DNA of 64,000 bases from Thiemannella venezuelensis (GTDB lineage: Bacteria > Actinomycetota > Actinomycetes > Streptosporangiales > Streptosporangiaceae): contig NZ_JACHJJ010000006.1 in assembly GCF_014203605.1 (NCBI RefSeq), positions 62,001 through 126,000 of the forward strand. The letters run 5' to 3'. Shown here in pieces: positions 18,767 through 27,430 of the stretch. Positions within the stretch are counted from its first letter, which is position 1. Every line of letters begins with the position of its first letter. The notes below the pieces were generated by a model. The model was not told where the DNA came from and ran no database searches. It saw only the letters and a program-made list of their open reading frames with translations. The translations under genes were made by a program, and so were the position numbers.

Positions 18767-20878
18767 GTGCGGAACGCCGGAAGGTCCATAGACCCGCCGA
18801 CGGATCCGTTCGCCGCGGTCCCCCTGCCGTCGCGCCCGGTCCGCCCCGGGGCCGCCGCCGGAAGCCGCGGCCCGCAGGACCCGCAGACCCCGCCGGGCAA
18901 CGGCGGCTCGCGGCTGCCTCCGGGCGTCTCGCCCGACATCTTCGGCTCCTCCGGCGCCCCCGGGTTCGGCAGGCCTCCCGCGGGTCCCGCCCCCGGACCC
19001 GGCGGGCCCTCCGCGGGTCCCGTCCCCGGCGGGCCGGTGCTGCCTCCCACGGCGCCGCCGCCCCAGCCCTGGCGGATGCCCGCCCCGCCGCCCGAGCCCT
19101 CCTTCGCGCAGCGTCCCCTGCCCGGCGGTCCCGGACAGGCGCCCGGTGACGGCCCGCCGCCCCCGGGTCCCCCGCGGGAGGAGGGGCGCCCCCCTCGCCG
19201 CCGGGGCCGTACGGTCCTCGTCGTCGTCGCGGTCCTGCTGGTGCTCGCCGCTCTCGCCTACGCGGTCCCCGCGGTCGCCATGTCCGGCAAGATCCTTCCC
19301 GGTTCGCAGGTCCGGGGCGTCGACATCGGCGGGCTGACCGCGACCGAGGCGGCCGACCGGCTCAGGGAGCGTCTCGCCGACCGGGCCGGCAAGGAGATGT
19401 CCCTCGAGGCCCTCGGCAAGGAGTACCCGCTGGACCCGGCCAAGGCCGGCCTCGAACTCGACGTCGTCGCCACCATCGGCCAGGCGCGTGGCGGCTTCCC
19501 CGCTCCCGCGGACGTCTGGCGCGCGCTCACCGGCACCACCGAGCTGGCCCCCAAGGTCTCGGTCGACCGCGAGCGGCTCCGGGAGAGCGTCGAGGAGCTG
19601 GCCGGGAAGATCGACCGGAAGGTGGTCGAGGGGTCGGTCGGCTTCGAGGGCCTCAAGCCCGTGGCGGTGAAGCCCCGGGACGGCCGCGAGCTGGAGCGGG
19701 AAGCGGCCGCCGACACCATCGAGAAGGCGTTCCTCAACACGGACGGCCCGGTCGGGCTGCCGGTCACCGTGATCAAGCCGAAGGTCACGGCCGCCGTGGT
19801 CGCCAAGACCGCCGCCGCGGCGGAGGAGGCGCTGTCCGGCCCGATCACCCTGACCTACGACGGTAAGCAGGCGCAGATCCCGGTCGAGACCATCGCCGCC
19901 CACCTGTCCTTCGAGCCCGACGGCTCCGGCGGCATGCGTCCGGTGTTCGACGCCAGGAGCGCCCTCGCCTCCGTCGAGAAGGACCTCGTCGACCCGGCGC
20001 AGGCGCCCCGGGAGCCGACCTTCCAGATCGTCGGGAACAAGCCCAGGCTGGTCCCCGGCCGCAGAGGCAAGGGCGTGGACGACGAGAAGCTCGCCGAGGA
20101 CGTGGCCGAGCTGATCGCCGGGGGCGGCGACCGCACGATCCCGGTCACCCTCGCGACCGTCAAGCCGCGCACCTCCCTGACCGAGATGCGCAAACTCGGC
20201 ATCAAGGAGAAGATCAGCGAGTTCACCACGATGTACCCCTGCTGCGTGCCCCGGGCGACCAACATCCAGACGATCGTCAAGCTCCTGGACGGCCACCTGG
20301 TCAAGCCCGGCGAGACCTTCTCGCTCAACGGCGTGGTCGGCCAGCGCGACAAGGCCCGCGGCTTCGTCGAGGCGCCCATGATCCAGGGCGGGAGGCTGGT
20401 CCCCTCGGTCGGCGGCGGGATCTCCCAGTTCGTGACGACCATGTACAACGCCGTGTTCTTCGGCGGCCTCCAGGACGTCCAGCACATGGCGCACGAGTTC
20501 TACATCTCGCGCTACCCCGCGGGCCGCGAGTCCACGGTCTCCTGGCCCCAGCCGGACTTCCGCTGGAAGAACGACTCCGAGTACGGCGTGCTGGTGAAGT
20601 CCTCGGCGACGAGCACCTCGGTCACGGTCGCCTTCTGGAGCACCAAGCGCTACGACATCGAGTCCGTCTCCTCCGAGCGCTACAACCCCACCCAGTTCGA
20701 GCGCAAGACCGACAGCGGCCCCGGCTGCATCCCGATGACCGGCCAGCCGGGGTTCACGATCGACGTGACCCGGATCTTCAAGCAGGACGGCAGGGAGGTC
20801 AAGCGGGAGAAGAAGACGACCGTCTACAAGCCCGAGCTCGACCTCAAGTGCGTCGCCGAGCCCACCGAGGACGAGTAA
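18767..20878 (+). CDS. VanW family membrane-anchored cell-wall protein
   Basis: 703 residues from GTG 18767 behind GGAGGAGA. Residues 1-145 are Pro/Gly-rich and cytosolic, followed by a single TM helix (TVLVVVAVLLVLAALAYAVPAVA, about 148-170). The extracellular part has two YoaR-type putative peptidoglycan-binding domains (GVDIGGLTATEAADRLRERL; ITLTYDGKQAQIPVETIAAHLSF in pieces) and then the VanW domain from FTTMYPCCVPRATNIQ through KPGETFSLNGVVG and VGGGISQFVTTMYNAVFFGG. VanW proteins accompany some vancomycin-resistance clusters, but most are housekeeping proteins of unknown enzymology. No van genes are nearby. The promoter region 18680-18766 is AT-richer than its surroundings. Confidence 0.92.
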   Translation: MRNAGRSIDPPTDPFAAVPLPSRPVRPGAAAGSRGPQDPQTPPGNGGSRLPPGVSPDIFGSSGAPGFGRPPAGPAPGPGGPSAGPVPGGPVLPPTAPPPQPWRMPAPPPEPSFAQRPLPGGPGQAPGDGPPPPGPPREEGRPPRRRGRTVLVVVAVLLVLAALAYAVPAVAMSGKILPGSQVRGVDIGGLTATEAADRLRERLADRAGKEMSLEALGKEYPLDPAKAGLELDVVATIGQARGGFPAPADVWRALTGTTELAPKVSVDRERLRESVEELAGKIDRKVVEGSVGFEGLKPVAVKPRDGRELEREAAADTIEKAFLNTDGPVGLPVTVIKPKVTAAVVAKTAAAAEEALSGPITLTYDGKQAQIPVETIAAHLSFEPDGSGGMRPVFDARSALASVEKDLVDPAQAPREPTFQIVGNKPRLVPGRRGKGVDDEKLAEDVAELIAGGGDRTIPVTLATVKPRTSLTEMRKLGIKEKISEFTTMYPCCVPRATNIQTIVKLLDGHLVKPGETFSLNGVVGQRDKARGFVEAPMIQGGRLVPSVGGGISQFVTTMYNAVFFGGLQDVQHMAHEFYISRYPAGRESTVSWPQPDFRWKNDSEYGVLVKSSATSTSVTVAFWSTKRYDIESVSSERYNPTQFERKTDSGPGCIPMTGQPGFTIDVTRIFKQDGREVKREKKTTVYKPELDLKCVAEPTEDE

Positions 20879-20904
20879 CCGCGACTTTCCGCATCGGGTG
20901 TCGC

Positions 20905-21269
20905 CGTGGCTTCGGTGCGGGTTTGTTCTTGGGGATCGTGCTTCGGTGGGGGCTGCTGTTTTGTTCATGGTCGCGCTCCGCGGGCGGGTACTCCGGCCGG
21001 CTCGTCGCAGCGGGTCTCTCGTTCGCGGGGGCGGCGGCCTGCCGGGCGCGCGGGGTTGCGCCTTTGACGCCGGCCGGAGTACCCGCCCGCTCCGCACTCC
21101 TCATGCTCGGCCGTACCGGGTGCGGGCCGTATGGATGCGGGCCTTTCCCGGACGACCGGTGTTCCCGCCGTCGCTGAAGCAATCCGCGCGGGTCCGGTAC
21201 GGGTGATTCGCCGTTGCCTTGCGGCCATGCTGTCGGGAAGGAGCTCACGGCGGACCGCCGCAGGGTGTT
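20905..21269 (+). repeat. Inverted-repeat element, copy 1, with 22-bp perfect hairpin
   Basis: This fills most of the 544-nt gap 20879-21422. It matches 23047-23460 in reverse orientation over roughly 360 bp, with the inner ~330 bp highly similar, ending at GCCGCAGGGTGTTG. It contains a perfect 22-bp inverted repeat (20980-21001 with 21069-21090) around a 67-nt loop. The other copy has the same hairpin with five paired base changes. The outer end (20905-20965) has degenerate ~30-nt repeats of the type TTCGGTG-GGG-TTGTT. No gene is credible here; open frames are GC-driven. The remainder 21270-21422 is lower in GC and precedes the next gene. Confidence 0.85.
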
Positions 21270-21422
21270 GCGATTTCTCCGAGCGTTTCTCTGAGCCCCG
21301 AAGTCGATCAGCCAGCTGTAGATGGGGATGCAATAGCCGGTGAACGCAACAGCCGGATGACGAGCGCTAGGCAAGGGACTTGCCGTGATGAGATATAGAT
21401 CATCGTTTGCAATGATCGGCGC

Positions 21423-22226
21423 ATGAAACGTATGAGCGTCACGCTGGTAGTGGCCGGCCTGCTGAGCGTCATGATTCCCGGCGGCGCCGTGCACGCGGCT
21501 CCCGAATCGGAGTCCCTCGACTCCGTCGTTAAAGCGATCAAGAAGCAGTTCGCGAAGAAGAGCAGCGTGCGCTTCTCTGTCAAGCGACGTGGTGGGCCTC
21601 CAGCCACCTGGGACATGAAGGCGTCCGGTGCGTACCGCTTCAGGGCTTCAGGCGTGTACGCCGCCGACACCACGGAGATCTACCAGGTGCCAGGAGGGAC
21701 AGGCCGGTCCCGGGGAATCAGCATCGGTCGGGAGTTCTACTCACAGGCCTACGTGCGTTCCAAGGACGGCAAGTACATCTGGAAGTCGCCGCCGACGGTG
21801 GGGGAATGGACCTACGGGCGGAACTTCGCCGGGGTCATCTGGGGAGAGGACCTGATCAACGGGATCAACCCGGGCTTCCTCAAGCTGGGCGCCTCTCACG
21901 GTGCGACCAGCGCTGACGGTGGAACATTCGAGGGAGTGAAGACGACCCTCCACAGCGGCACGGTGACGGTTCCCAAGCTGGGTGAACGGCAGGCCGGGAT
22001 GACCTTCGGGACCGAGGAGGAGCCTTTCACGTGGGGCGGGCCGATCACCTGGAAACTCTGGGTGGGTCCGGACAACCTGCCGAGACGTTTCCACGCCATC
22101 ATAAGGTTCACCCGGCCGGAGGGCGGTGAGGCCGACACTATGACGATGAACATCATCTATCGAGGATGGGGAACCCCCGTCAAGATCACGGCTCCGCCCA
22201 AGCACCTCATCAGCGACGACTGGTGA
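21423..22226 (+). CDS. Secreted protein, possibly LppX/LprG-like fold
   Basis: 267 residues from ATG 21423. The signal peptide MKRMSVTLVVAGLLSVMIPG ends near VHAAPES with no lipobox. The mature part begins with a helix rich in Lys (VVKAIKKQFAKKSSVRFSVK), then antiparallel-strand-like segments with SGAYRFRASGVYAADTTEIY and GREFYSQAYVRSKDGKYIW, and ends GTPVKITAPPKHLISDDW. Such proteins in Streptosporangiaceae resemble the LppX/LprAFG or LolA-like lipid-binding fold, but I only see overall character, not diagnostic residues. Its codon use is less GC-biased than neighbours. It lies between the two inverted repeat copies, together with the LOG-family gene. Confidence 0.8.
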   Translation: MKRMSVTLVVAGLLSVMIPGGAVHAAPESESLDSVVKAIKKQFAKKSSVRFSVKRRGGPPATWDMKASGAYRFRASGVYAADTTEIYQVPGGTGRSRGISIGREFYSQAYVRSKDGKYIWKSPPTVGEWTYGRNFAGVIWGEDLINGINPGFLKLGASHGATSADGGTFEGVKTTLHSGTVTVPKLGERQAGMTFGTEEEPFTWGGPITWKLWVGPDNLPRRFHAIIRFTRPEGGEADTMTMNIIYRGWGTPVKITAPPKHLISDDW

Positions 22227-22485
22227 TCGACGACCTGCGGAACAACCTGCTCAACGTCAACACCAAAATTGTGCATGGTTGTCGCGGAAATCAACGGCAG
22301 GAGCGACGCAGGCGGCAACGCCGTCTACACGGATTCATGCGGCTTGGGCTGTAACCGTCCGCCTGCCCGCCCATGACCGAAGCGGAGTTGACCCGGCACA
22401 CCACCGTCTCCACCGAATGGATCATCACCTGCAGGACCGCGGCCGCCCCCGGAGGTTCCCGACCGGTAGCTGGGAGGATCACATC

Positions 22486-22965
22486 GTGGCGATCCAGGTG
22501 GCGGTCTGCGGGCCGCGCGACTGCACGAGCGAAGACGAGTCCAACGCCCGCGAGGTCGGCAGGCTGCTGGCGGAGCGCGGCGCGGTGGTGATCTGCGGCG
22601 GGTACACGGGGGTCATGGCCGCGGTGGCGGCCGGTGCCCGGTCGGCGGGCGGAACGGTGGTGGGCATCCTGTCCCGGGCCGACAGGGAGAACGCCAACCC
22701 TGACCTGTCCATCGTGATCCCGACCGGCGTCGGGGAAGCTCGGAACAACATCATCGTCAACTCGGGTGACGCCGTGATCGTCATCGGCGGATCGTGGGGA
22801 ACTCTGTCGGAGCTGGCGCTCGCCATGCGCCGGGGCCGTACCCCCGTGGTCCAGCTCGGCGGCTGGCGACTCCTCGACGAGGAAGGGCACCCACTTGCCG
22901 GTGTCAGGCACGCTTCGTCACCGGAGGAGGCACTGACGGCCACCGGGCTCTGGTCCGGTCACTGA
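22486..22965 (+). CDS. LOG-family-like protein (TIGR00725/YvdD-type Rossmann fold)
   Basis: 159 residues from GTG 22486, with GGGAGG about 10 nt upstream. VAVCGPRDCTSEDESNAREV starts a Rossmann-like fold; VVICGGYTGVMAAVAAGARS, GEARNNIIVNSGDAVIVIGG and the segment GGSWGTLSELALAM (GGxxGT-x-x-E) are the nucleotide-monophosphate-binding motifs of the LOG/lysine-decarboxylase-like family. Related proteins release cytokinin-type bases from nucleotide monophosphates, while the short TIGR00725 group is uncharacterised. The gap 22227-22485 before it has only a doubtful 33-codon frame (22276-22377) with a CGLGC motif. It lies inside the inverted-repeat-bounded segment. Confidence 0.85.
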   Translation: MAIQVAVCGPRDCTSEDESNAREVGRLLAERGAVVICGGYTGVMAAVAAGARSAGGTVVGILSRADRENANPDLSIVIPTGVGEARNNIIVNSGDAVIVIGGSWGTLSELALAMRRGRTPVVQLGGWRLLDEEGHPLAGVRHASSPEEALTATGLWSGH

Positions 22966-23046
22966 CCCGCCGGCCATGGATCCCGCGCCTTTTCCCGCTT
23001 TCTCGGCCACACCATCGTCCACATGACAGGATCAGTCCTGGTCGGC

Positions 23047-23460
23047 ACACCCTGCGGCGGCCCGCCGTGAGCTCCTTCCCGACAGCATGGCCGCAAGGCA
23101 ACGGCGAGCCACCCCGCACCAGGCCCGCGCGGGTTGCTTCAGCGACGGCGGGAACACCGGTCGTCCGGGACAGGCCCGCATCCATGCGGCCCGCACCCGG
23201 TGCGGCGGCGGGCGAGGAGTGCGGAGCGGGTGGTTGTTCCGGCCGGTGTCAAAGGCGCAACCCCGCGCGCCCGGCAGGCCGCCGCCCTGTGCGACCAGAG
23301 GCCCGCTGCGACGAACCGGCCGGAACAACCACCCGCGGAGCGCGACCATGAACCAGACAGAAGCCCTCACCGAAACACGACGACAACCAAGGCCCCACCG
23401 GAACACGACGACAACCAAGGCCCCACCGGAACACGGCGAAACCGGGAAGCCACGGCCACT
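23047..23460 (-). repeat. Inverted-repeat element, copy 2, with 22-bp perfect hairpin
   Basis: This is the reverse-orientation partner of 20905-21269 and fills most of the 541-nt gap 22966-23506. Its perfect 22-bp inverted repeat (23226-23247 with 23315-23336) encloses a 67-nt loop, the same length as in copy 1. The strongly conserved flank 23047-23225 corresponds to 21091-21269. The outer end contains the 28-bp tandem repeat at 23375-23430. The two copies bracket the secreted-protein and LOG genes. I see no gene in it. Confidence 0.85.
23375..23440. repeat. 28-bp tandem repeat, two full units and a partial third
   Basis: A unit beginning ACACGACGACAACCAAGGCC and ending CCACCGGA occurs at 23375-23402 and 23403-23430 without mismatch and starts a third time (ACACGGCGAAACC) at 23431. 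It lies at the outer end of repeat copy 2; copy 1 has degenerate counterparts near 20905-20965. Confidence 0.9.
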
Positions 23461-23506
23461 ACCATGCACCCGGAGACGCTCGGGAGCGGCCTTGGATAAT
23501 GCGGGC

Positions 23507-24415
23507 ATGAAGATCTGGGTCCCTTCCGAGGCCGCCGTCGATGTCCTGAGTGATCTGCCCGACGTGGAGTGCGCCGTCTACGACGGCACCGGACCGGTTC
23601 CCGAGGGGGTGGAGGAGGTCGAGGTCTGGGTCCCGCCGCTGGTGACGGTGCCCGACATCCCGGGGCTGCTCGGCCGGATGCCCCGGCTGAGGCTGCTGCA
23701 GACCGTGACGGCGGGCGTGGAGCCGTACCGGCCGCACCTGCCGGAGGGGGTCGTGCTCTGCAACGCGCGCGGAGTGCACGACGCGGGCACCGCGGAGTGG
23801 GCGGTGGGGGCGATGATCGCGATGCTCCGGGAGTTCCCGGGGTTCGTCAGGGCCCAGGAGCGGGCGGAGTGGACCTACCACCACACCGGGGCGCTGGCCG
23901 ACTCGACCGTGCTGATCGTCGGATACGGCTCGATCGGCGAGGCGCTGGAGCGGCGGCTGGCCGGGTTCGAGGTGGACGTGGTCCGGGTGGCCAGGACCGC
24001 GCGGGGGAACGTGCACGGCCAGGACGAACTGCCCGCGCTGCTGCCCCGGGCGGACGTGGTGGTGCTGCTGGTCCCGGCCACGCCCGACACCGCCGGGCTG
24101 GCGGGAGCGGACTTCCTGGCCGCGATGAAGGACGGCGCCCTGCTGGTGAACGCCGCGCGGGGAGGGGTGGTGGACACCGGAGCGCTCCTCGCCGAGCTGG
24201 AGAAGGGCCGGATCATGGCGGCGCTCGACGTGACCGACCCGGAGCCGCTGCCCCCGGACCACCCGCTCTGGACGGCGCCGGGGGTGTTCGTCACCCCGCA
24301 CGTGGCGGGCAGCACTCCGGCCTCGGGACGGCGCACGCTGCGGCTGCTCCGCTCGCAGCTCCTGCGCTACCTCGCAGGTGAACCGCTCAAGAACATGATT
24401 ACAGGCTCATATTGA
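23507..24415 (+). CDS. D-isomer-specific 2-hydroxyacid dehydrogenase
   Basis: 302 residues from ATG 23507; the frame is open upstream only through the repeat element. The C-terminal NAD-binding half has the glycine motif VGYGSIGEALERR (G-x-G-x-x-G) and the catalytic set Arg in NAARGGVVDTGALL, Glu in DPEPLPPDHPLW and His in TPHVAGST. The N-terminal half is short, as in the compact phosphoglycerate dehydrogenase-like members. It reduces a 2-keto acid or oxidises a 2-hydroxy acid; substrate is not evident, and serA at 45861 is clearly the serine-pathway enzyme. It is monocistronic. Confidence 0.9.
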   Translation: MKIWVPSEAAVDVLSDLPDVECAVYDGTGPVPEGVEEVEVWVPPLVTVPDIPGLLGRMPRLRLLQTVTAGVEPYRPHLPEGVVLCNARGVHDAGTAEWAVGAMIAMLREFPGFVRAQERAEWTYHHTGALADSTVLIVGYGSIGEALERRLAGFEVDVVRVARTARGNVHGQDELPALLPRADVVVLLVPATPDTAGLAGADFLAAMKDGALLVNAARGGVVDTGALLAELEKGRIMAALDVTDPEPLPPDHPLWTAPGVFVTPHVAGSTPASGRRTLRLLRSQLLRYLAGEPLKNMITGSY

Positions 24416-24466
24416 CGGAGAAAGACGACCGGGAAAGGAATCCGGACCGTGGCTGGCCCGTGACCT

Positions 24467-24476
24467 TACGTACGTA
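24467..24476. promoter_or_regulatory. Short palindrome TACGTACGTA upstream of the PAS-GGDEF-EAL gene
   Basis: A perfect 10-bp palindrome in the 273-nt gap 24416-24688. It could be a regulator half-site pair for the downstream gene. The rest of the gap shows no gene or clear terminator. Confidence 0.3.
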
Positions 24477-24688
24477 TCGTTGTCTCCTGCGACCCTGATC
24501 GCTCGCATGGTTATCAGAACGGTGACGACTGCGCTGTTGTCACCCCCCGTGCCGTCCGGAGAGTCCACACTGGCCGTGTGCTCTCCGGGGCGCGAGAACG
24601 AGGAGGTGCACCGCGACGGCGTCGCGGGCGCGGCGGAGTGAAGGAACGCCGCGGAGGCGAGACGGACCTAACACTGGATGGGCAAGAG

Positions 24689-27430
24689 ATGATCCGCTGG
24701 CGTGACCCACGGGTACCGCTGACCGCCGCCGCCGGGATCGGCGCGGCAGGGCTCGTCGCCGCGCTCGCCGGCGGCGTCCCGGCGGGGGTCGCCGGAGCGG
24801 TGGCGGGCGTCGCGGCCGCCGCGGCCGCCGCGCTCTCCCTGTTCGTCGCGGCCTCCCGGGCGACCGGCCGCCGCCGGGCGCCGGCCTGGCGCTGGCTGGC
24901 GGCGGGATCGATCACCTGGACGGCCGGGACCGGCGCCCGGCCGATCGCGGACGGCACGCCGTTCGTGGTGAACTTCGCCGACCTGGTGCTGCTCGTCGGC
25001 ACGGCGATGCTCGCCGTCGGCACCGGCCTGTCCGCCGCCCGGCCCGCCCAGGGGCCTGCGTTCCTGCGCGGTCTCGCCGACGCCTACGTCTGCGCGGCCT
25101 CGCTCTTCGCGATCGCCTGGGTCCTCGTGCTGGGCCCCCTCTACGGCGAGGCCGGAGGGGCGGGCGGCTTCGCCGTCACCTTCTCCGCCCCGCTGCTCTG
25201 CCTGGTCCTCGCCTGCGCGGTGGCGCCCTCGGTGGTGCCGATCCGGCGCTCGGCGTGGCCGGTGGGCCTGGCGGCGCTCGCCGTGCTCGCCGCCATCACC
25301 GTCAGCGAGACGGTCACCGCGGTGGCGAGGCTGGCGGGAGACGCCCCGCCGGCGGCCGGGATCTGGCCGGCCCCGATGGCGTTCCTGCTGCTCGCCGCGG
25401 TCCCCTGGACCGGCCGCGCGGCCCGCGAGGCGCAGGCGGCCCGCGAGGCGCAGGCGGCCCGCGAGGCGCAGGCGGCCCGGGAGGGAGATGCGGCTTCCGA
25501 GGCGGAGCCGGCGCCCGATGCCCGGGAGGAGCCCGCGGACGGGCCGGTCTTCCCGCTGCTCGCCGCGGTGCCGCCGGTCCTCGTCGCCGCGGCCACCGCC
25601 GTGGTGCTCCTGCGGGTGCTCGGCGGCGGCGTGAAGGGTCCCGGCGGGGTCCTGGCCGTCGTCTCGGCCTCGGTCGTGGGGGTCCTGGTGGTGCGGCTGT
25701 TCACGGTCCTGACGGAGGCGGGCCGCCTGCGGCGCCTGCTGGACCTCGGCGAGCGGCAGCTCCAGGACCTGGCCGAGAGCACCGGCGACGTGGTCCTGCT
25801 CTGCGACCACGACGGCCTGGTGCACCGGATCGGCGAGGGCGTCGAGATCACGTACGGCTACCGCCCCGAGGAACTGGTCGGCGGATCGATCTTCGACTAC
25901 ATCCACCCGGAGGACGTGCCCGGCATCCGGCAGGCGCTGCACGCGATGAGCCCCGACGAGGAGCCGGCCGAGGGCACCGGGGCCTGCATGATCGCCTGCC
26001 GGATCCGCGCGGCCGACGGCACCTGGCGGCCGACCGAGTCGGTGGCCACCCGGCACGTGCGCGGGGAGGGACTGCTCCTGGTCACCACGCGCGACGTCAG
26101 CGACGAGGAGGCCCTGCGCAACCAGCTCACCCACCTGACCTTCCACGACGGCATCACCGGCCTGCCCAACCGGGCCTACTTCGAGGAGCGCACCAGGGAG
26201 GTGCTGGCCAGGCCCGGCGGGAGCCGTACGGCTGTGATCTTCCTCGACCTCGACGGCTTCACCTCGGTCAACGACTCGGTCGGCCACGCCAGCGGCGACT
26301 ACCTGCTCGGCCAGGCCGCCCGCAGGCTCCGCGCCGCCGTACGGACCGACGACACCCTGGCCCGCTGGGGCGGCGACGAGTTCGCGGTGCTGCTGGAGTC
26401 GGGGGCGGACGCGCAGACGGCGGTGGACCTGGCCGAGCTGCTGATCCACACGGTCTCCTCGGAGCCGTTCCGGGTGGCCGACCGGGACATCGCGCTGACC
26501 GCGAGCGTCGGGGTGGCCTTCGCCGACGACGAGGTGTCCTCGGCGGACCTGATCCGCAACGCCGACGTGGCGATGGCCCGGGCCAAGGAACTCGGCGGAC
26601 GCCGGGTCGAGGTGTTCGCCGCCCACATGCACGCCGACGTGGTGCGCCGCCTGGAGCTCGCCGCGGACCTGCAGCGGGCGCTGCTGGAGAACCAGTTCGC
26701 GATCGAGTACCAGCCGGTGGTGGACCTGGCCACCTCGCGCGTCACCGCGGTGGAGGCGTTGGTGCGCTGGTGGAAGGGGGGCGTGTTCGTGCCCCCGGAG
26801 CAGTTCCTCGGCCCGGCCGAGGACACCGGCCTGATCGTGCCGCTGAGCGAGTGGATCCTGCGGGAGGCCTGCCAGGAGGTGGCGGCGTGGCGGGCGTCGG
26901 GGTGGGACATCGGCCTCTCGCTCAACCTCTCGGCCCGGCAGATCACCGCGCCGCGCTTCGTGGAGACCGTCGAGTCGGCGCTGGCCGAGAGCGGCCTGCC
27001 GCCCAGCGCGCTGACCCTCGAGGTGATCGAGGAGATGCTGGTCGAGGACGCCGAGGAGGTCGTCACCCGCCTGTCCGAGCTGCGCGGGCTCGGGGTGCGG
27101 CTGGCCATCGACGACTTCGGCACCGGCTACGCCTCGCTGGCGTTCCTCCGCCAGCTCCCGGTGGACATGATCAAGATCGATCCGTCGTTCGTCTCCGGCC
27201 TGGGCCGCGACGAGACGCTGACGCTGCTGACCCGCACGATCGTTCGGCTCGGTCACGACCTCGGACTGATCGTGGTGGCCGAGGGCATCGAGCGTCCCGA
27301 GCAGCTGGACCTGCTGCGGGAGATGGGCTGCACGCGCGGCCAGGGCTACCTGGTGGCGCGGCCGATGGCCCCCCGCGGTGTCGACTCCCTGATGCCCGCC
27401 ACGGCCGCCGGCCTGCGGGAAAGCGTCTGA
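24689..27430 (+). CDS. Membrane protein with PAS, GGDEF and EAL domains
   Basis: About 913 residues from ATG 24689 (MIRWRDPRVP); the ribosome site is weak and GTG starts near 24578-24638 are possible. The N-terminus has about eight hydrophobic segments. In one loop lies a Glu-rich AAREAQ hexapeptide repeated three times (18-bp DNA repeat near 25430-25480). A PAS domain follows (LAESTGDVVLLCDHDGLVHR, about 365-480), then GGDEF (motif 561-565) and EAL (motif 689-691, later DDFGTGYASL). Both active motifs are intact, so it may make and break cyclic-di-GMP. It is the second dual-domain protein in the window. The PAS domain suggests ligand or redox gating. Confidence 0.92.
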   Translation: MIRWRDPRVPLTAAAGIGAAGLVAALAGGVPAGVAGAVAGVAAAAAAALSLFVAASRATGRRRAPAWRWLAAGSITWTAGTGARPIADGTPFVVNFADLVLLVGTAMLAVGTGLSAARPAQGPAFLRGLADAYVCAASLFAIAWVLVLGPLYGEAGGAGGFAVTFSAPLLCLVLACAVAPSVVPIRRSAWPVGLAALAVLAAITVSETVTAVARLAGDAPPAAGIWPAPMAFLLLAAVPWTGRAAREAQAAREAQAAREAQAAREGDAASEAEPAPDAREEPADGPVFPLLAAVPPVLVAAATAVVLLRVLGGGVKGPGGVLAVVSASVVGVLVVRLFTVLTEAGRLRRLLDLGERQLQDLAESTGDVVLLCDHDGLVHRIGEGVEITYGYRPEELVGGSIFDYIHPEDVPGIRQALHAMSPDEEPAEGTGACMIACRIRAADGTWRPTESVATRHVRGEGLLLVTTRDVSDEEALRNQLTHLTFHDGITGLPNRAYFEERTREVLARPGGSRTAVIFLDLDGFTSVNDSVGHASGDYLLGQAARRLRAAVRTDDTLARWGGDEFAVLLESGADAQTAVDLAELLIHTVSSEPFRVADRDIALTASVGVAFADDEVSSADLIRNADVAMARAKELGGRRVEVFAAHMHADVVRRLELAADLQRALLENQFAIEYQPVVDLATSRVTAVEALVRWWKGGVFVPPEQFLGPAEDTGLIVPLSEWILREACQEVAAWRASGWDIGLSLNLSARQITAPRFVETVESALAESGLPPSALTLEVIEEMLVEDAEEVVTRLSELRGLGVRLAIDDFGTGYASLAFLRQLPVDMIKIDPSFVSGLGRDETLTLLTRTIVRLGHDLGLIVVAEGIERPEQLDLLREMGCTRGQGYLVARPMAPRGVDSLMPATAAGLRESV

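Follow-up and report, generated by a model that had tools for sequence, protein, structure and literature searches.

The window analysed here, ie a stretch of 64,000 nucleotides of the Thiemannella venezuelensis genome, contains two long hairpins which differ from each other in sequence and yet are both perfectly paired. The question raised by this locus is what maintains the pairing, and whether it does so at the level of RNA or of DNA. Each hairpin has 22-nt arms which are 100% complementary, and the loop is 67 nt in both. Direct comparison of the arms bore out the sequence-only reading on these points, and also its observation that the left arms (GCGGGCGGGTACTCCGGCCGGC in copy 1 and GCGGGTGGTTGTTCCGGCCGGT in copy 2) are unequal at positions 6, 9, 11, 12 and 22, with all five differences matched by a complementary change on the opposite arm. 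If the changes in the right arm were independent, the chance of their falling at the same five positions and giving the complementary base would be approximately 1/(26334 x 243), or about 2e-7. The best explanation, to which we give about even chances, is that the hairpins belong to boundary repeats of exchangeable cargo bays, the contents of which would be exchanged by recombination through the borders.

The repeat in the window and its distribution

That the window holds two copies of a repeat had been recognised from the letters alone, and the copies are real, but their arrangement had been overlooked. They lie in opposite orientation, with similarity running over about 340 bp (87-93% complementary), and face each other at a distance of 1.8 kb with two accessory genes between them, ie they are the ends of one unit. 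The features of the locus are given in Table 1.

Table 1. Features of the bay in the window and of its neighbours (window coordinates).
Feature	Position	Strand	Basis
Left core neighbour, VanW-domain protein	18767..20878	+	PF04294, E=2.6e-42; reads into copy 1
Outer flank of copy 1, G+T-rich	20879..20969	+	past its first 3 bases, unalignable with the empty site of the congener
Border repeat copy 1 (core)	20970..21263	+	profile match 2-297; alignment with copy 2; similarity runs 20936-21273
Covarying hairpin of copy 1	20980..21090	+	arms 20980-21001 and 21069-21090; 67-nt loop
Cargo gene 1, secreted or lipoprotein-like, 267 aa	21423..22226	+	weak match to SCO4651 lipoprotein family, below cutoff
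Cargo gene 2, SLOG cluster 4 (LDcluster4) protein	22417..22965	+	Pfam PF18306, E=1.5e-42; start codon uncertain
Border repeat copy 2, facing copy 1	23052..23346	-	profile match 2-297 on - strand; similarity runs 23042-23380
Covarying hairpin of copy 2	23226..23336	-	arms 23226-23247 and 23315-23336; 67-nt loop
Outer flank of copy 2	23347..23444	-	28-nt tandem repeats, three units, at 23361-23444
Right core neighbour, D-2-hydroxyacid dehydrogenase	23507..24415	+	PF02826

The interior of the bay has a G+C content of 0.647, compared with 0.724 in the flanks. Cargo gene 1 has a patchy distribution within the family Streptosporangiaceae; homologues of its 267-aa product, 77-87% identical over the matched part, occur in other genera (L159-L165), and no border repeat was found near those homologues. 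The homologous gene looks broken in genomes G045 and G100. Homologues of the window cargo at 79-87% identity, traced in looking for its origin, are likewise in other genera and away from the repeat. On its outer side each copy adjoins tandem repeats, now decayed, which are similar to the hairpin's 5' arm (for example 23361-23444 in the window, and L092-L097), and in the outer flanks of the copies the inward-reading strand is rich in G and T. Another tandem repeat, an in-frame one of 18 nt, was seen at 25418-25489 within a large GGDEF/EAL-like open reading frame (24578-27430).

The element is an intergenic repeat of about 295 bp, with a stem of 21-22 bp and a loop of 67-80 nt. Only the two copies had been described from the window, and more are present both in this genome and in its relatives. 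In the genome of T. venezuelensis the copies and fragments number about nine, and two of those on contig C1 form another inward-facing pair, 3.5 kb apart. The end of contig C26 (L018) and the start of contig C49 (L019) break at the same place inside a hairpin, so that assembly evidently stops at hairpins and copy counts from draft genomes are lower bounds. In a search of 299 genomes of the family, most of the element could be aligned at 68-79% identity in genus g16, Planobispora and Streptosporangium, with the match in genus g61 limited to the hairpin part. An iterated profile collected 96 distinct near-full-length copies. A covariance model of the hairpin alone had matches in 46 of the 251 family genomes sampled (13 of 68 genera), and in a sample of 198 genomes from the class all four genomes with matches belonged to the family, the hairpin not being found outside it. 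Rfam gave no match above threshold at 20000-24500, and no description of this repeat was found in literature searches. The repeat is scattered through one family of soil bacteria and seems to mark places of gene exchange.

Facing pairs and the proposed exchange of cargo

Among the regions inspected, 37 contained a + copy followed by a - copy (some of them incomplete) at a distance of 0.5-9 kb, orthologous bays of related species each being counted separately. By gene calls from a GC-position script, 30 of the 37 bays lie between convergent genes, compared with 9 of the 48 adjacent gene pairs in the window, and a median of 167 bp separates the stop codon from the element. Inward-facing pairs are present in the window genus (g1), Streptosporangium, Planobispora, g16, g61 and g4, and also in g65, there from hairpin-model matches only. 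Pairing is not obligatory: the complete genome G123 has 25 copies, and for about half of them there is no second copy within 10 kb; most of the copies which stand alone there are preceded by a gene reading in sense. Four bays (L095, L098, L113 and L119) have 0.46-0.92 kb between their borders with little or no recognisable gene, and have perhaps been emptied of cargo.

The commonest families among 75 cargo proteins scanned were alpha/beta hydrolases, MerR, TetR and MarR regulators, ketoacyl synthases, NAD-binding proteins, GNAT acetyltransferases and SnoaL-like proteins; single cases included a tandem ABC-ATPase protein resembling ABC-F, LysE and an epoxide hydrolase. No transposase, integrase or recombinase was among the matches listed for the most frequent families of the 75, and there were no mobility genes among 30 cargo proteins scanned individually. 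One cargo protein (L100:3000-5147, - strand) has matches to UvrD-like helicases and, judged by these, is possibly HelD/HelR-like.

A bay can keep its position across several genera, with accessory genes which differ from one to the next, are lost or are inverted. Next to the VanW gene there is a bay in Streptosporangium (G123, G170 and G006) and Planobispora (G088 and G112) as well as in the window genome; a bay also adjoins a VanW-sized gene in S. canum (G189) and S. minutum (G071), and in G158 and G045 a copy of the repeat directly follows the VanW gene. The cargo at this site is a lipoprotein-like and a SLOG protein in the window; alpha/beta-hydrolase-like, sigma-factor-like and GDPD proteins in G123; a GDPD with FAD-binding and TetR-like proteins in G006; and a LysE exporter in both Planobispora. 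The right neighbour in Streptosporangium and Planobispora is a convergent GSDH gene, located between the bay and the D-2-hydroxyacid dehydrogenase gene and absent from this site in both genomes of the window genus. In the congener G001 the VanW and dehydrogenase genes are adjacent, with neither repeat nor cargo. Two more sites with the repeat, one beside a response regulator/histidine kinase pair and the other beside an aldehyde dehydrogenase gene, are common to Streptosporangium and Planobispora and contain unrelated cargo. At all three sites, different whole-gene cassettes thus occupy the space between the same conserved genes, as in minimal mobile elements.

In the sister species represented by L096 and L100, the flanking proteins are about 95% identical and the cargo is unrelated, the similarity of the DNA ending at the inner ends of the borders. 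In L103 and L112 (G170 and G006) the flanks are collinear at 98% and 90% identity and the interior is 92% identical in the opposite direction, and the same pattern of inverted cargo between collinear flanks is found in two Planobispora (L126 and L129). Inversion between collinear flanks is the product expected of recombination between facing repeats. Bay and cargo are stable across species in L106 and L116. Mosaic borders were also considered as proof of exchange; where cargo is unlike, the inner parts of the borders tend to be less alike too, but the distance between the species is a confounder.

The two borders of one bay are nearly identical, and similar to all other borders of the same genome. 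Identity averages 93% between borders of one bay and about 86% with other sites of the genome, and drops to 51-67% for the same site in another genus. In a tree of the 96 copies the nearest relative was in the same genus in every case. For 72 copies it came from the same genome, and for none was it the copy at the corresponding site of a different genus. Copies therefore cluster by genome and not by site, ie they have been homogenised or repeatedly replaced within genomes.

These observations suggest a scheme in which two inward-facing borders of about 295 bp bound a cargo bay between core genes, usually convergent ones. The facing borders would recombine with each other, giving inversion and gene conversion, and ordinary homologous recombination may also join them with borders elsewhere in the genome or with those of incoming DNA. 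Cargo would in this way be swapped or flipped with the neighbouring genes left untouched. We infer homologous exchange from the inversions, the homogenisation and the breakpoints of homology, no event having been caught with both its donor and its recipient. A broader proposal is that in this actinobacterial family the bays, several to a genome and fixed in place, constitute a chromosome-wide system. The facing structured repeats at their edges would serve as substrate for a dedicated process by which cargo is installed, swapped and flipped between convergent core genes, ie a dispersed platform for gene cassettes with no resident integrase; this we put forward as a tentative idea at about one chance in four's worth of belief.

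The main rival, which we consider possible though rather unlikely, is that a non-autonomous transposon, of the MITE or mobile insertion cassette kind, has these repeats as its terminal inverted repeats and carries passenger genes, with its transposase encoded elsewhere and a preference for sites between convergent genes. A dispersed multicopy family with both solitary and paired copies, clustered by genome as after recent bursts, with variable cargo and sites which are sometimes empty, is what such an element would leave. Its ends would be short, however, whereas the borders are about 295 bp long and contain a covarying hairpin. On the outside they grade into tandem repeats in decay, and the sites recur across genera. 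Inverted repeats are present, but no target-site duplication was seen at the window site when it was compared with its empty counterpart in the congener. The one missing border that could be resolved is in a bay of G006 (L247, compared with L107), in which the left border is absent and the right one incomplete, and the last bases of the element remain. This loss is apparently a deletion, not a return to a clean empty site; a short repeat there, considered as a target-site duplication, fits a deletion leaving remnants of the element.

Maintenance of the stem

In 39 diverse copies, 95.1% of stem cells were paired in a 21-bp stem, and 9 of the 21 pairs had changed on both sides (68 cells). The covariation score was reached by none of 500 shuffles, and in controls with the partner slid pairing dropped to 32-46%. 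The earlier claim of a maintained paired structure is upheld by these results and extends to genera outside those used for discovery and for training the model, in which further positions are compensated, for example CG to GC at two adjacent pairs. Nor do the arms mismatch as often as the loop: identity is 86-87% in the arms, 70% in the loop and 64% in the downstream part. An inner 6-bp hairpin is also kept. One arm contains an invariant TCC, even where the partner arm no longer pairs, a hint that the sequence of that arm has a role in itself. Some lineages have 2-4 fixed mismatches in the stem, so its perfection is not strictly required.

The changes in the stem are nearly always complete Watson-Crick swaps, as expected of arm-to-arm conversion or of template switching, which yields such swaps (PMC8794818). 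Under the exchange of cargo through borders, the long hairpin would be kept palindromic at the DNA level by either process, and/or the palindrome may be retained since a cruciform or a symmetric DNA-binding protein starts recombination there. The covariation could instead be without function, template switching during replication repairing imperfect palindromes by the mechanism described in PMC8794818 and homogenisation spreading the outcome. The scarcity of wobble intermediates is in its favour, but the arms are more conserved than the loop or the downstream part and the palindrome persists in 13 genera, which suggests some constraint besides mutation bias, and we consider this explanation unlikely, at perhaps one part in five of our belief.

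A role as RNA had been among the first suggestions, the hairpin being put forward as a possible undescribed structured RNA, and this was not borne out. RNA from the sense strand should tolerate G-U, so that the lack of an excess of G-U leaves an RNA role unsupported: mismatches in the stem were G-T in 10 and A-C in 16 genome-level events, and in the new genera G-T in 0 and A-C in 14 cells. The whole element folded as RNA little better than shuffles (z = -1.65). Upkeep of the stem at the DNA level therefore fits better. A strand-specific mismatch test suggested an excess of A-C in subsets, but by genome the counts were not clearly unbalanced. A related proposal has the element as a structured RNA or a terminator belonging to the flanking genes, within their 3' untranslated regions; pairs would arise wherever two convergent genes both finish with such an element, and the stretch between them would be a neutral landing place for cargo. 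Both flanking genes do read into the element in 30 of the 37 bays, a gene in sense precedes most of the unpaired copies of G123 and the stem covaries strongly, but a 67-nt loop is unlike that of an intrinsic terminator, Rfam has no match, and neither the flipping of cargo nor the identity within pairs is explained. In the window, 8 terminator-like sites were counted against 1.2 expected, but over the outer flanks of 98 copies the mean was 0.29, against 0.31 in composition-matched shuffles. We judge this proposal improbable. Least probable is that a chromosomal integrase acts on the hairpin as a site for site-specific recombination, with a fold like that of an integron attC. In its favour are the paired arms around a structured loop, the invariant TCC on one arm only and a cargo of whole genes, but no integrase is among the cargo families listed, the paired sites are inverted and not direct, and no attC-like core consensus was noticed (without a dedicated search).

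Significance and relation to known systems

If boundary repeats of exchangeable bays are the correct explanation, they show where Streptosporangiaceae chromosomes park accessory genes such as regulators, hydrolases, exporters, an ABC-F-like protein and acetyltransferases, and the border repeat is a sequence tag by which every bay could be located. As the repeat is detectable in public genomes, exchange rates and the flow of cargo become directly measurable. The locus is also a natural case in which compensated changes in a DNA stem probably do not mean RNA, and hence a warning for the discovery of RNA genes by covariation.

REP and BIME sequences are multicopy intergenic palindromes, often at the 3' ends of genes, with units of about 20-40 bp. 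Membership of a REP-like family, which had also been suggested, is an inadequate description of an element of about 295 bp with a stem of 21-22 bp and a loop of 67-80 nt, usually present as two copies which face inward from either side of exchangeable cargo. Mobile insertion cassettes and MITEs carry passenger genes between inverted repeats and have no transposase of their own, their repeats being short transposon ends with target duplications; the borders described here are long, no duplication was seen and the sites are conserved between genera. From integron cassette arrays the bays differ in the inverted orientation of paired sites, and no integrase is among the listed cargo families.

Two further parallels are in Neisseria. 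It has been suggested that the intergenic dRS3 repeats of NIME arrays favour the recombination of nearby loci with imported DNA (PMC3898611); these are 20-bp repeats in arrays, and neither a covarying long hairpin nor regular facing pairs around cargo is described in the sections of that work dealing with them. Minimal mobile elements are variable whole-gene cassettes between conserved genes (PMC3898611), and the bays follow the same logic of different cassettes between the same two genes. Such elements are incorporated solely by homologous recombination; in the bays, inversions between the repeats were seen, and no mobility enzyme was among the family matches listed for cargo. Minimal mobile elements are defined by the conserved genes alone, whereas the bays, in a different phylum, have dedicated inverted and structured borders of about 295 bp, which occur at many sites per genome, are homogenised and surround cargo that can invert.
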